This document shows, in pieces, positions 15,931 through 55,307 of a DNA stretch of 64,000 nucleotides; the stretch's first letter is position 1; each line of letters begins with the position of its first letter. Source of the DNA: an uncultured Cycloclasticus sp. (lineage in GTDB: Bacteria; Pseudomonadota; Gammaproteobacteria; Methylococcales; Cycloclasticaceae); NCBI GenBank assembly GCA_913060865.1, contig CAJXTU010000001.1:310001-374000 (forward strand), in the 5' to 3' direction. The position numbers and the translations under genes are program-made. A model generated the notes under the pieces. That model had not been told where the DNA came from and made no database searches. It was given only the letters and a program-made list of their open reading frames with translations.

Positions 15931-17634
15931 TTAATTCGCCGTTTTTAAGGAACTCATTGCTTGGTGAGTGCTTAAAAAGATATTTTCTTCACCAATTTTT
16001 TTAAGAAATTCTGTGTCCCTTAGTTTATCCATGACGGGGCCTTTGATTTCTGTTAAATGTAGTCGGATGCCAGCTTTTTCAAGCCGGTAGAGGATGTCAT
16101 CCAATGACTCTAATGCGCTTGTGTCAATAAAACTAATAGAGCTGCAAATCAAAACAACATGGTTAATGGACTGGTTGTCTGCGACGAGTCTCATAATGGT
16201 GTCTTCAAGATAATTGGTATTGGCAAAATAGAGGTTTTCATCTACGCGAATAGCAAGAATCTCTTTATCTGTTTTAACTGTATGTCGATTGATGTTTCTA
16301 TAGTGCTCAGTGTTTCCAACTTGTCCCACAATAGCGATATGAGGTTGGCTGCTTCTATGTAGATAAAGCCCAATAGACATAAGAACCCCTGCAATAATGC
16401 CACTTTCGACATCAATAACGAGTACCGTAAAAAAGGTAATAAGCATTGAAAAGGCATCCGTTCGATCGTAACCCCACGCTTGCTTGAGTGTGTGGATGTC
16501 TATAAGTGGTAGAACGGCGAGTACGATGATGGCGCCTAACGCAGCTTTAGGTAAGAAAAAAAATAAGGGCGTTAAAACAGCTAGGGTCAGGCCAACTAAA
16601 CAGGCAGTAATAATTGATGAAAAAGGTGAGTTGGCGCCTGCTGAAAAATTGACCATGGATCGACCAAAACCACCGGCTACAGGATAGCCGCCAGCAATAG
16701 CGGAAGCAATATTAGCGGTGCCTAAACCAACCAATTCTTTGTTAGAATCAATTTTTTGTCGCTTTTGACTGGCCATTGATTTGGCAATCGAAATGCTTTC
16801 TAAATAGCCAATTAAGGCGATTAGTAGAGCGTTAGGAAGTAAGTGTTTAATTAACTCAGGGTTTAAACTGGGCAGAATAATATCAGGTAGCCCCGGGGGA
16901 ATGTGGCCAATAATCGATACACCGTGTTGGCTATCCAAATTTAAATAGTAAACAGTAAGGGTGCTAAAAGCGACTGCGATAAGAGGACCGGATTTTGAAA
17001 TAAACTGAACAACCTCCTCAGATGTTCCCCTTTTCTTTAGTAAGCCGACAAGCGGAGTTTTAAACCACCATAAAAGCAAGAGGCTGAATGTGCCGATAAT
17101 GAGTGTTATTGGGTTGCTCTGAGGTGCTTGGGTAATGGTACGGTAAAATGTTTCATAAGCGGGTAGCCCACGCGGGATGTCCAGCCCAAAAATATGTTTC
17201 ATTTGGCTTAATGCAATAATAATAGCGGATGCGCTAACAAAGCCGGAAATAACGGGGTGGCTAAGAAAATTTATAATGGCACCTAATCGTACCAATCTCA
17301 TTAGCAGTAAAATAATGCCAACTAATAGCGCGAGTGTATGTGCGGCAGTGACCATTTCGGTTACATGAATAATATCAAGTTCAATGATAGTAGCGCCGGT
17401 CATTAGCGACATGAGTCCAACAGGTCCAACCGCCAAGGTTCTGCTGCTACCGAAAGCAGCATATAAAATAAGAGGAAGGGTGGATGAATATAAAGCGACC
17501 TCAGGTGGTAACCCAGCTAACATACCGTAAGCCATCGATTGTGGCACAAGAACGACGGCAACAATAATACCTGCAATTAAATCACCGCTTAGTTGGGCTT
17601 TTTGGTAGTTCTGCATCCATTCAGGTAGAAACAT
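15931..17634 (-). CDS. SulP family anion (sulfate/bicarbonate-type) transporter with STAS domain
   Basis: A 567-residue inner-membrane transporter. The N-terminus (LSGDLIAGIIVAVVLVPQSMAYGMLAGLPP) is the SulP signature region, and about twelve hydrophobic segments follow up to residue ~420. A C-terminal STAS domain contains CSSISFIDTSALESL, the anti-sigma-antagonist-like motif. SulP proteins carry sulfate, bicarbonate or other anions, and the substrate cannot be read from sequence. Sulfate supply for PAPS used by the sulfotransferases is an attractive but unproved role. No partner gene adjoins it; it is monocistronic on the minus strand. Confidence 0.9.
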   Translation of the reverse strand: MFLPEWMQNYQKAQLSGDLIAGIIVAVVLVPQSMAYGMLAGLPPEVALYSSTLPLILYAAFGSSRTLAVGPVGLMSLMTGATIIELDIIHVTEMVTAAHTLALLVGIILLLMRLVRLGAIINFLSHPVISGFVSASAIIIALSQMKHIFGLDIPRGLPAYETFYRTITQAPQSNPITLIIGTFSLLLLWWFKTPLVGLLKKRGTSEEVVQFISKSGPLIAVAFSTLTVYYLNLDSQHGVSIIGHIPPGLPDIILPSLNPELIKHLLPNALLIALIGYLESISIAKSMASQKRQKIDSNKELVGLGTANIASAIAGGYPVAGGFGRSMVNFSAGANSPFSSIITACLVGLTLAVLTPLFFFLPKAALGAIIVLAVLPLIDIHTLKQAWGYDRTDAFSMLITFFTVLVIDVESGIIAGVLMSIGLYLHRSSQPHIAIVGQVGNTEHYRNINRHTVKTDKEILAIRVDENLYFANTNYLEDTIMRLVADNQSINHVVLICSSISFIDTSALESLDDILYRLEKAGIRLHLTEIKGPVMDKLRDTEFLKKIGEENIFLSTHQAMSSLKTAN

Positions 17635-17873
17635 TCAGTGGGCTCCTATTACGTCGACATTGTTAAATAGTTGGTCGGTAGTTTTTTAGGTGGCTTTTGT
17701 TTTTAATAGAAGACACCTAGATGATATCTAATATATCAAAATCATATAAGCTTATGAGTATTATTGTTATATGTTGGCTGAAATAAAACTGTAGAGCTTG
17801 TGTGCTTTTAGTCACTTTTTTGTTGCAGCGCAATAAAAAAACAATGAAATCAATCAGTTAAGAATCTTTATTG

Positions 17874-17901
17874 TTGCTTTTATGTGAAAACAATGTATTA
17901 T
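17874..17901 (+). promoter_or_regulatory. candidate promoter of a small RNA
   Basis: TTGCTT (17874-17879) and TATTAT (17896-17901) are separated by 16 bp and point toward the structured, terminator-ended stretch that follows. The -35 match is imperfect, so confidence is low without transcript data. Confidence 0.35.
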
Positions 17902-17907
17902 TCACAT

Positions 17908-18014
17908 CAAGAACAAGGAGAGGAGGAAGTTTTTTCTTTAATACAATTAAAGAAAGAGCGTCAAAAAACAATAATAAAAATAAAAAACTGGGGGGCTTTT
18001 AGCCCCTTTTTTTT
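17908..18014 (+). ncRNA. candidate small RNA with GGA-rich 5' end, hairpin and terminator
   Basis: Downstream of the candidate promoter lies ~105 nt with no convincing reading frame but clear RNA architecture. It has a purine stretch with repeated GGA (AAGGAGAGGAGGAAG, 17915-17929), then a 10-bp perfect stem TTTCTTTAAT/ATTAAAGAAA (17933-17955, ACA loop). An A-rich single-stranded linker and the GGGGCT/AGCCCC terminator with T8 follow. The GGA motifs could bind CsrA/RsmA or pair with the anti-Shine-Dalgarno region. It matches no RNA family I recognise. It sits between divergently oriented sulP and the 3' end of rpiA. Confidence 0.45.
17992..18014. terminator. bidirectional intrinsic terminator (sRNA candidate and rpiA)
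   Basis: GGGGCT (17992-17997) pairs with AGCCCC (18001-18006) across a 3-nt loop. A T8 run follows on the plus strand. Read on the minus strand the same hairpin is followed, after CCAG, by a T6 run, so it can also end transcripts of rpiA. Confidence 0.75.
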
Positions 18015-18051: not shown

Positions 18052-18708
18052 TTAGAGGTTTAGAGTTTGAATGCCTTGCTCGCTGGCCAGTAAGACGGTA
18101 TCGGCAGAACGATTGGCAAATAGTCCTACGGTTACAACGCCTGAGATGTTGTTTAGAGTGCTTTCAAGTTTTATGGGTTCTAAAATATCTAAGCGTTGAA
18201 TATCTAAAATAACATTGCCATTATCGGTAATAAAATTTTCTCGCCAAACAGGGTGACCACCTAGTGCGATAATTTCTCGAGCAACATAGCTTCTAGCCAT
18301 TGGTATAACTTCAATGGGTAATGGAAAGGCGCCAAGCCGAGAGACTAGTTTACTTTGATCGGCAATGCATACAAAAAGACGGCTTGCCGCGGCAATAATT
18401 TTTTCACGAGTTAGTGCGCCACCACCGCCTTTGATAAGTTCTAAATTGGAGTTTATTTCATCAGCGCCATCGACATAAATATCTAGTGTACCGACGGTAT
18501 TTAGGTCAAAAACTGGAATGCCCAGTGCCTGTAATCTTTCTGTGCTAGCTTCCGAGCTGGAAACAGCCCCTTCAAAGCGGTGCTTAATAGGGGCTAATAA
18601 ATCAATGAAGTGATTAACGGTCGAGCCGGTACCAACGCCTATAATGCGGGAGTTTTTTACATACGGAATAGCGGCTTCAGCGGCTTGTTTTTTTAGGTCG
18701 TCTTGCAT
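18052..18708 (-). CDS. rpiA: ribose-5-phosphate isomerase A
   Basis: A 218-residue cytoplasmic enzyme of the pentose phosphate pathway that interconverts ribose-5-phosphate and ribulose-5-phosphate. Diagnostic segments are [13 protein letters not shown] (phosphate binding), VDGADEIN and [11 protein letters not shown], all in normal order, and the length matches E. coli RpiA. It is on the minus strand downstream of the 5-FCL gene with an 85-bp gap, and its transcript probably ends at the bidirectional hairpin near 18000. Confidence 0.96.
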
Positions 18709-19411: not shown

Positions 19412-19594
19412 AAACGTTCCCCGCTAGCGCCGTATTAGGCTTCTACCTTAAACCGAAAGATTTAAGTGGGAGTCGGACATTTGCATTAGGCTTCTCTATA
19501 AGAGCATGCACATCAACAAAATGATCTGTCTTCCCGAGTAGGTAATTAGGTCCAAGGGCAATTCACCTTATCTCGAACACCGCAGGGAACGCAC
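19412..19594 (-). ncRNA. ssrS: 6S RNA
   Basis: The ~180-nt interval between zapA and the 5-FCL gene carries 6S features on the minus strand. The ends pair: CGTTCCC near 19586-19592 on the 5' side with GGGAACG near 19414-19421 on the 3' side. Internally the RNA reads GCATGCTC, then AGAGAAGCCTAATG, close to the GAGCAUGCUC...GAGAAGCC core of E. coli 6S RNA. The zapA-ssrS-ygfA order is the conserved gammaproteobacterial arrangement. 6S RNA binds sigma-70 RNA polymerase in stationary phase by mimicking an open promoter. Exact ends are approximate. Confidence 0.85.
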
Positions 19595-25002: not shown

Positions 25003-25148
25003 AATGTAAAGCCTCTAAATAATGCATGAGTTTAGTTAGAACAGTAACACTATTTTTTTGTGTGAGCAAAAGAGTCAAAGCAATTTAGCGAAAAGTCTTG
25101 TCGATGGAAATGGCTGTCTTAGCAAGGTACAATGTGCGATCAATTTAC

Positions 25149-25345
25149 CTCTTTTGGGAGAGATCGGTTAATCACCGACGCCGAAGGCGCAATCCGTCCG
25201 GAATCGCTCAGGCAAATGGACCATAAGAGAGATCATTGTGTTTAATGATCAGTTGGCTCTGGAGAGCGGCTTAACCAATGAGTTAAGCCCACCGAAGAGG
25301 AAAGAGAGCAATTGCTCTTAAACTTTCAGGTTTTGGACAGAGGGG
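25149..25345 (+). promoter_or_regulatory. tandem glycine riboswitch
   Basis: Two consecutive aptamers lie ahead of gcvT. The first (about 25149-25232) begins GGGAGAGAT, contains the paired CACCGACGCCGAAGGCG region, and closes with GGACCATAAGAGAG. A linker hairpin GATCATT/AATGATC follows (25231-25250). The second (about 25251-25345) has TCTGGAGAGCGG, the stem GGCTTAAC/GTTAAGCC, CACCGAAGAGG and TTTCAGG...GGACAGAGGGG. Its closing stem pairs CTCTG (25257-25261) with CAGAG (25338-25342). Tandem aptamers bind glycine and usually turn on glycine cleavage genes. Confidence 0.92.
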
Positions 25346-25377
25346 CGGCATGTGGTTTTCGCGTGCCGCCCTTTTTT
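25343..25377 (+). terminator. riboswitch-associated intrinsic terminator
   Basis: GGGCGGCA (25343-25350) pairs with TGCCGCCC (25364-25371), followed by T6, only ~17 bp before the gcvT start. It abuts the closing stem of the second aptamer, so ligand binding could control its formation by transcription attenuation. Confidence 0.75.
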
Positions 25378-31815: not shown

Positions 31816-32052
31816 TCAAGCATTAAATGACTTGAAATATTGCTGCGTCGCAATAATATTGTTTGTCACTATCTTCTTGAAGGCATTAGTAATATGGCAC
31901 AGGTCGGTTGGTGTTCCTTCCATTATCCGTTTATAAAAAATACCAGTTTCTTCAGTTGCCTTGGCAGTACCCTCTAGGACTGTTTCGTTCAGCTTGGTAG
32001 CTTGGCTGATAGTTTCTTGGGCTTTTGTTTGTACTTCATCAATAATCGACAT
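31816..32052 (-). CDS. small helical phasin-like protein
   Basis: A 78-residue protein, predicted as two amphipathic helices (IIDEVQTKAQETISQATKLNETV and a second ending ATQQYFKSF), rich in Thr, Ala and Lys. The pattern resembles short phasins, which coat polyhydroxyalkanoate granules, but no polymer synthase or depolymerase is nearby. AGGAGTA lies just upstream of the ATG, a good ribosome-binding site, and supports expression. It stands alone on the minus strand between the gcv operon and the catabolic block. Confidence 0.5.
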   Translation of the reverse strand: MSIIDEVQTKAQETISQATKLNETVLEGTAKATEETGIFYKRIMEGTPTDLCHITNAFKKIVTNNIIATQQYFKSFNA

Positions 32053-32408
32053 AAGTTACTCCTTTTTAAATGATGCGGTGCACAATATCTCATGTGATTT
32101 CTTTGTTGTCAATTCTAGATTTGTTTAATTTGCAACATTAATGGGGGATATTAAGCCAAATTTGCATTTTTGAGTTTGAGCAAGCAGTCTGATGGACGAT
32201 AAAGTCGTTATATGACATAAAAAATGGGCTTATGGGCACAAAATAAATGGGCAGTCTGCTTGGTTATATTTTATTTAAGGTGATTGTCTAGAAAACCTTA
32301 GCATCGCCAGTTATATAAGCGAAGGGGGTAACGATGTAGTCTCTTTGTAGCCGAGGAAAATAAAAAGTACTAAGAGGGGTAGCGGTGACCGAAAGGCAAT
32401 AAGAAAGC
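32053..32408. other. intergenic region, no gene seen
   Basis: About 355 bp between the phasin-like gene and the dioxygenase terminator. It has no frame with a plausible start and coding character and no recognised structured RNA. It probably contains the phasin-like gene's promoter at the left end. Confidence 0.5.
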
Positions 32409-54420: not shown

Positions 54421-54445
54421 TTATATTGCGACGCAATATTTTTTT
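54421..54445 (+). terminator. intrinsic terminator
   Basis: ATATTGC (54423-54429) and GCAATAT (54433-54439) form a 7-bp stem with GAC loop, followed by a T run. It is plus-strand oriented and unconnected to any annotated gene, supporting a small transcript from the promoter at 54351-54380. Confidence 0.55.
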
Positions 54446-54797: not shown

Positions 54798-55307
54798 GTG
54801 CAACAGAAACGTAAACAGCTGGAATATGAACGCTTAGTGTTGGTATATAGTGATGAGCTTTTTCGTTACGCGCTTTGGTTATGCCGTGATAAAAGCATGG
54901 CGGAGGATTTGCTTCAAGAGACGTGTATGCGTGCTTGGAAATCGTTAGATAAGTTGCGTGACACGTCATCCAGTAAAGCTTGGTTGATGACGATTCTGCG
55001 AAATGAGCACGCACGTCAATATGCTCGATACCGACCTGATATGGTGGATTTGGACTTAGATATGTTGAGTTTGAGAGACACAGACAATGATACAAGTGCC
55101 GATGCATTTGCTTTGAAGCAGGCATTAAATGAGCTAGCAGATGAATACAAAGAGCCGCTTTTATTACAAGTTATTGCTGGTTTGAGTTGTGAGGAAATTG
55201 CATCAGTCTGTAACATTACTAAAAGCGCGACGATGACGCGCTTGTTTAGGGCAAAACAAAAGTTAAGAGATGTACTAAGGCCTGATGAAGCCGTGGTAGG
55301 TGAATGA
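54798..55307 (+). CDS. ECF-type RNA polymerase sigma factor
   Basis: A 169-residue group 4 sigma factor. Region 2 spans YSDELFRYALWLCRDKSMAE through QETCMRAWKSLDKL, and region 4 contains LLLQVIAGLSCEEIASVCNI with the helix-turn-helix KSATMTRLFRAKQKL. The start is GTG 54798 with AAGG upstream. It overlaps the DUF3379 gene by 4 bp, so the downstream protein is the obvious candidate for its regulator. Target promoters are unknown. Confidence 0.92.
   Translation: MQQKRKQLEYERLVLVYSDELFRYALWLCRDKSMAEDLLQETCMRAWKSLDKLRDTSSSKAWLMTILRNEHARQYARYRPDMVDLDLDMLSLRDTDNDTSADAFALKQALNELADEYKEPLLLQVIAGLSCEEIASVCNITKSATMTRLFRAKQKLRDVLRPDEAVVGE

Follow-up and report, generated by a model that had tools for sequence, protein, structure and literature searches.

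Positions 17908-18014 (+ strand) of the 64,000-nucleotide stretch of Cycloclasticus DNA analysed here, hereafter the window, almost certainly hold a real, previously undescribed and stand-alone small RNA gene. Its sequence context indicates that transcription is probably controlled by PhaR, and there are fairly good grounds to think that the RNA is Hfq-dependent and acts by base-pairing. We lean towards the complete model, in which a genus-wide independent gene would encode a PhaR-controlled, Hfq-dependent, trans-acting base-pairing sRNA. The strengths given to these four statements are judgements, and none was computed. The region is laid out as follows.

15931-17634, - strand: sulP, divergent from the sRNA gene (Pfam)
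17821-17835, no strand assigned: predicted PhaR operator TGTTGCAGCGCAATA, centred at about -81 from the presumed start (motif and matrix)
17848-17860, + strand: IHF-like site AATCAATCAGTTA (WATCAANNNNTTR) between operator and promoter, a full consensus match
17871-17889, + strand: proximal palindrome TTGTTGC[AT]TTT[AT]TGCAAAA, overlapping the -35 region, with a core identity of about 0.89 in 17 genomes
17874-17879, + strand: weak -35 element TTGCTT, with 3 of 6 consensus positions
17896-17901, + strand: -10 box TATTAT, conserved as TAnnAT in nearly all orthologs
17908-18014, + strand: small RNA gene of about 107 nt, presumed start +/- 2 nt
17915-17923, + strand: 5' core AAGGAG[AG]GG, presumed seed, near-invariant and unpaired in the fold model
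17926-17962, + strand: hairpin, variable in sequence with pairing kept (z, shuffles, covariation)
17964-17987, + strand: A-rich linker, 8 ARN triplets in a row, which presumably contact the distal face of Hfq (ARN count)
17990-18014, + strand: intrinsic terminator with U8, which may also serve rpiA on the - strand (terminator and fold predictions)
18052-18708, - strand: rpiA, convergent with the sRNA gene (Pfam)

Extent, structure and range of the small RNA gene

The window was assigned to Cycloclasticus through the relatives of its rpiA. The coordinates and strand of the gene are those proposed in a first-pass annotation, which had them right. The gene adjoins rpiA in all 17 Cycloclasticus genomes that hold rpiA; 18 genomes of the genus were examined, and the one lacking rpiA, an incomplete assembly (80%), stands outside the count of 17 orthologs. 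Across these 17 genomes conservation rises at the promoter, is high over the 5' tail, the linker and the terminator, and falls outside the unit. Identity peaks at the 5' core (0.96) and the terminator (0.98), and the hairpin is the sole variable part within the unit. The fold of the whole RNA has a z of -3.4, with none of 200 shuffles folding equally well.

The hairpin, originally described as a perfect 10-bp helix, is present with 14 central pairs, G-U pairs included, and has a z of -6.0 against dinucleotide shuffles when the terminator is excluded. That it would be conserved in relatives was borne out, since all 17 orthologs beat their shuffles (z negative throughout, mean -2.8), with upstream control segments scattering about zero, and compensatory changes are found at six of the six core pairs in the model alignment of the 17 orthologs. 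Hairpin covariation is 0.464 as against 0.203 in shuffles (0 of 500) and at most 0.134 with the partners slid; these figures lean upward because the alignment (A3) was fitted to its structure and the orthologs are related rather than independent, a relatedness that the slid controls keep. The terminator, for its part, shows a compensatory change from UA to CG in five genomes. The presence of the unit in 17 of 17 genomes, the drop of the conservation profile outside it and the compensation of all six core pairs place it far beyond chance.

The earlier view that the RNA lies outside the known families also stood: no Rfam family matches at the gathering threshold, only chance-level matches appear up to E = 5, and conservation is limited to Cycloclasticus. 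A match to Rfam Bp1_162 on the - strand was discarded at 28 bits (cut-off 50). The Rfam scan of the same window does recognise a 6S RNA (19414-19591, - strand), upstream of a 5-formyltetrahydrofolate cyclo-ligase-like gene in the usual arrangement, and a tandem glycine riboswitch (25145-25350, + strand) ahead of glycine-cleavage genes. Covariance model R1 was run over 301 genomes of the order, 18 from Cycloclasticus and 283 others. This search, which the first-pass annotation had suggested as a check, matched all 17 rpiA-bearing genomes of the genus at 68.7-106 bits and gave at most 40.8 bits elsewhere in the order, with no convincing homolog among the 283 other genomes. Those of the outside matches that were inspected lacked the 5' core, being terminators or A-rich stretches; the family is therefore at present known only from Cycloclasticus. 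In the papers searched, no small regulatory RNA is described from this genus.

The upstream control region

The promoter-like pair noted previously stood in one half: the -10 box is conserved, but the -35 element is weak and is not listed by a consensus promoter scan. The most informative part of the region, the PhaR operator and IHF-like site upstream, had been overlooked. The operator TGTTGCAGCGCAATA matches TG[N]TGC[N]3GCAA, a motif detected with MEME and footprinted in work on PhbF of Herbaspirillum (PMC3206438), and PhaR of Sinorhizobium meliloti uses a similar palindrome (PMC12542648). When scored with a matrix built solely from phasin promoters of sister genomes, the source genome itself being excluded, the site at 17821 ranks first of the 64,000 positions of the window, and the operator scores high in 16 of the 17 orthologs, with G009 the one that lacks it. 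A full palindrome with at most one mismatch occurs at only two sites genome-wide, namely this operator and a site within the coding region of a phasin gene that has two further copies in its promoter. The operator word recurs in the principal phasin promoters of the genus, as TGTTGCNNYGCAATA across the -35 and TAATGCRCTGCAACA downstream of the -10. Phasins are encoded in the genus, the PhaR DNA-binding domain is found in all 18 Cycloclasticus genomes, and the PhaR of the source genome carries both PHB_acc Pfam domains. Both sequence hallmarks of a PhaR regulon, an encoded PhaR and an operator of the footprinted form at the promoter, are thus found for the sRNA.

The position of the operator ties it to the RNA rather than to the divergent sulP. 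It sits at a constant -92 to -98 from AAGGAG, whereas the gap between AAGGAG and sulP varies between 242 and 326; G017, which has no sulP there but a transposase remnant upstream, retains both operator and RNA. Because of this constancy and this retention we assign the operator to the RNA gene. The same observations bear on the idea that there is no regulatory RNA here at all, and that a shared bidirectional rpiA terminator together with sulP regulatory sites mimics a gene. In its favour, the terminator is predicted to act on - strand transcripts of rpiA as well, part of the A-rich linker may be read there as the U-tract, and sulP may use part of the region. However, such an arrangement would not account for what lies between operator and terminator, namely the conserved -10 box, an invariant 5' core and a hairpin that covaries, and the operator keeps its spacing to the RNA, not to sulP, and outlasts the loss of sulP. 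We regard it as very improbable.

If, then, the operator serves a genuine sRNA gene, PhaR most likely represses the sRNA promoter, with granules relieving the repression, by analogy with phasins and with the rhizobial sRNA MmgR. It should be noted that the operator lies upstream of the promoter, whereas the phasin operators overlap theirs, so repression is not the sole possible sign and activation is possible. Between operator and promoter, most orthologs retain AATCAnnnnnTTA of the IHF-like site, placed -65 to -70 relative to AAGGAG (G009 lacks it, and in G016 it is degenerate), although the match is weak by itself, there being 14 consensus matches within the 64-kb window. The proximal palindrome was considered as a second PhaR operator and ruled out by its matrix score. 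A sigma-54 promoter was likewise rejected on inspection: GG-N10-GC is not found upstream, and the spacing of the proximal element is wrong.

Farther upstream in the gap between sulP and the sRNA gene, TATCTAATATATCAAAATCATATAAGCTTA (17725-17754) is conserved with an identity of 0.72-0.78 in 17 genomes and is perhaps a sulP promoter or regulator site.

The 5' tail, the A-rich linker and their candidate partners

The first-pass annotation had recognised a GGA-rich single-stranded 5' part, which is found at 17915-17927 and is unpaired in the fold model of this genome. Every column but one of AAGGAG[AG]GG is invariant in the 17 genomes, and the nucleotide preceding AAGGA varies between C, T and G. 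AAGGAG is also a perfect Shine-Dalgarno core, as would be expected if AAGGAGAGG were the ribosome-binding site of a small translated ORF or leader peptide. We rejected this reading as extremely unlikely, given that 15 of the 17 orthologs have no ATG, GTG or TTG 3-12 nt downstream of the core, that in G016 the ATG following it is at once succeeded by TAA, and that the + strand downstream holds nothing but the convergent rpiA. A conserved -10 box, an intrinsic terminator and no coding function are what the sequence of an Hfq-type trans-encoded sRNA is expected to present, and all three are found here.

The GGA motifs had also been taken to suggest an interaction with CsrA, which the 5' tail would bind or titrate. 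CsrA is encoded in the source genome, two or three GGA motifs lie within the first 20 nt in 16 of the 17 orthologs, and the tail contains ACAAGGA, identical to the core of the CsrA consensus. CsrA-type control of polyhydroxybutyrate (PHB) in Azotobacter (PMC8401924) also counts in its favour. Against it, a single GGA is invariant, every GGA falls within the unpaired 5' tail with no hairpin loop carrying one, the position ahead of AAGGA is not fixed, and Rfam PrrB_RsmZ scores 12.5 bits on the sRNA with a cut-off of 44. Moreover, the GGA motifs are 5-8 nt apart, which is too close for both sites of one CsrA dimer. Sponges such as CsrB and RsmZ share GGA motifs with the sRNA, but they carry several, mostly in loops, whereas the sRNA has a single invariant one and no GGA-bearing loop; it is for this reason an unlikely CsrA sponge, and the suggested CsrA interaction is weak even with CsrA encoded.

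Hfq is a better candidate. Both the A-rich linker and the strong terminator of the earlier description are present, and the linker carries 4-9 ARN triplets in each of the 17 orthologs, in runs longer than in shuffles of the same linkers (P <= 0.044). Hfq is encoded in 16 of the 18 Cycloclasticus genomes, the source genome included, so that an Hfq gene, ARN runs and a U8 tail, the sequence signatures of an Hfq-dependent sRNA, occur together. The ARN tract and U-rich 3' end point to Hfq as the likely partner.

The hfq gene may itself be under PhaR control. Beside its -10 is a PhaR-type operator, TGTTGCRCTGCAAAA (G000:C3:69504-69520), and with the phasin-derived matrix the hfq promoter scores at least 10 in 8 of 16 genomes. 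With PhaR-type sites in both the hfq and the sRNA promoter, one regulator may govern the amounts of Hfq and of the sRNA together. These hfq operators, present in about half of the genomes, and the ARN tract in 17 of 17 orthologs would also suit a decoy that mainly sequesters Hfq, comparable to CrcZ acting on Hfq/Crc in Pseudomonas, and whose 5' tail is no seed. Nevertheless, each RNA has a single ARN tract where CrcZ has several, and the highest conservation ahead of the terminator, that of the 5' tail (0.96), is left unexplained by a decoy, which makes this a distinctly unlikely alternative to a base-pairing sRNA.

For a base-pairing RNA the 5' core would be the natural seed. The initial idea that its GGA motifs pair with the ribosome-binding sites of targets fails because AAGGAG looks like a ribosome-binding site rather than its complement. 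A search across the 18 genomes for exact 9-mer and 11-mer complements found no conserved perfect 9- or 11-nt seed complement at the same gene beyond chance pairs. The seed-complement sites, once clustered by homologous context, resolved into chance pairs, sites within coding regions, or the reverse-strand reading of ribosome-binding sites, and were set aside. Duplex energies against the leaders of phasin, phaR, hfq, csrA, rpiA and sulP gave none above shuffles.

The proposed circuit and its relation to known systems

According to the model that we favour, PhaR, as a sensor of PHB granules, would bind the operator at about -81, and the IHF-like site would bend the DNA between operator and promoter. 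As granules accumulate they would titrate PhaR, and the sRNA promoter would most likely be derepressed, as for phasins. The transcript would be held by Hfq through the ARN linker and the U-rich 3' end, the hairpin would provide stability or spacing, and the unpaired 5' AAGGAG[AG]GG would be presented to pyrimidine-rich (CUCCUU-like) sites in target mRNAs.

The nearest known system in circuitry is MmgR (alpha-r8) of S. meliloti, whose promoter region likewise holds a PhaR-type operator. There PhaR/AniA binds the promoter of the Hfq-dependent MmgR and represses it (PMC12542648, PMC7143759), and MmgR limits PHB and phasins (PMC12542648, PMC7143759, PMC8401924). However, the two RNAs differ in build, MmgR having 77 nt folded into three stem-loops, with a loop that bears an anti-Shine-Dalgarno motif, whereas the Cycloclasticus sRNA has about 107 nt and a purine-rich unpaired 5' tail. 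The operator is within the promoter in the one and upstream of it in the other, and the bacterial classes are different. No sequence relation between the two was noticed, and the Rfam matches of the sRNA up to E = 5 include no alpha-r8 family. The sRNA is analogous to MmgR and apparently not its homolog.

In architecture the sRNA resembles the class II Hfq-dependent sRNAs ChiX, MgrR and CyaR, with which it has in common an ARN tract, a U-rich terminator and a single-stranded pairing region; in those RNAs the tract and the terminator contact Hfq. We know of no sequence relation between them and the sRNA. CrcZ and CrcY of Pseudomonas are alike in their A-rich ARN motifs and are also linked to carbon metabolism and PHA, but they have several motifs and are transcribed from sigma-54 promoters under CbrB (PMC8401924), whereas the sRNA has one tract and a sigma-70-type -10.

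Among the marine bacteria that degrade polycyclic aromatic hydrocarbons, Cycloclasticus is a major genus. Since the operator predicts both an inducing condition for the sRNA, carbon excess with granules, and its regulator, the function of the sRNA is directly testable. If confirmed, it would, as far as we have found, join MmgR as the second sRNA under PhaR control, the first from beyond the alphaproteobacteria, and would suggest that carbon-storage sensing recruits small RNAs repeatedly. A bolder and rather doubtful proposal is that PhaR heads a riboregulatory branch in Cycloclasticus, controlling both hfq and the sRNA, such that carbon storage tunes post-transcriptional regulation overall. 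If true, such a circuit would have arisen in gammaproteobacteria on its own, separately from the PhaR-MmgR pair of rhizobia.

Several other PhaR-like sites were noted. The second-best PhaR-type site of the window, TATTGCGACGCAATA (54424-54438), has a priA-like gene on one side and, at 54897, a sigma-factor-like gene on the other. A 78-aa ORF without a Pfam match (31819-32085) contains a PhaR-like word at 31841, within its 3' end, is closely preceded by another at 32071, and is possibly an unrecognised phasin-like protein. Finally, a PhaR-like palindrome at G000:C2:114389-114405 precedes an acetyl-CoA acetyltransferase-like gene, likely of the PHB pathway, by about 50 bp.
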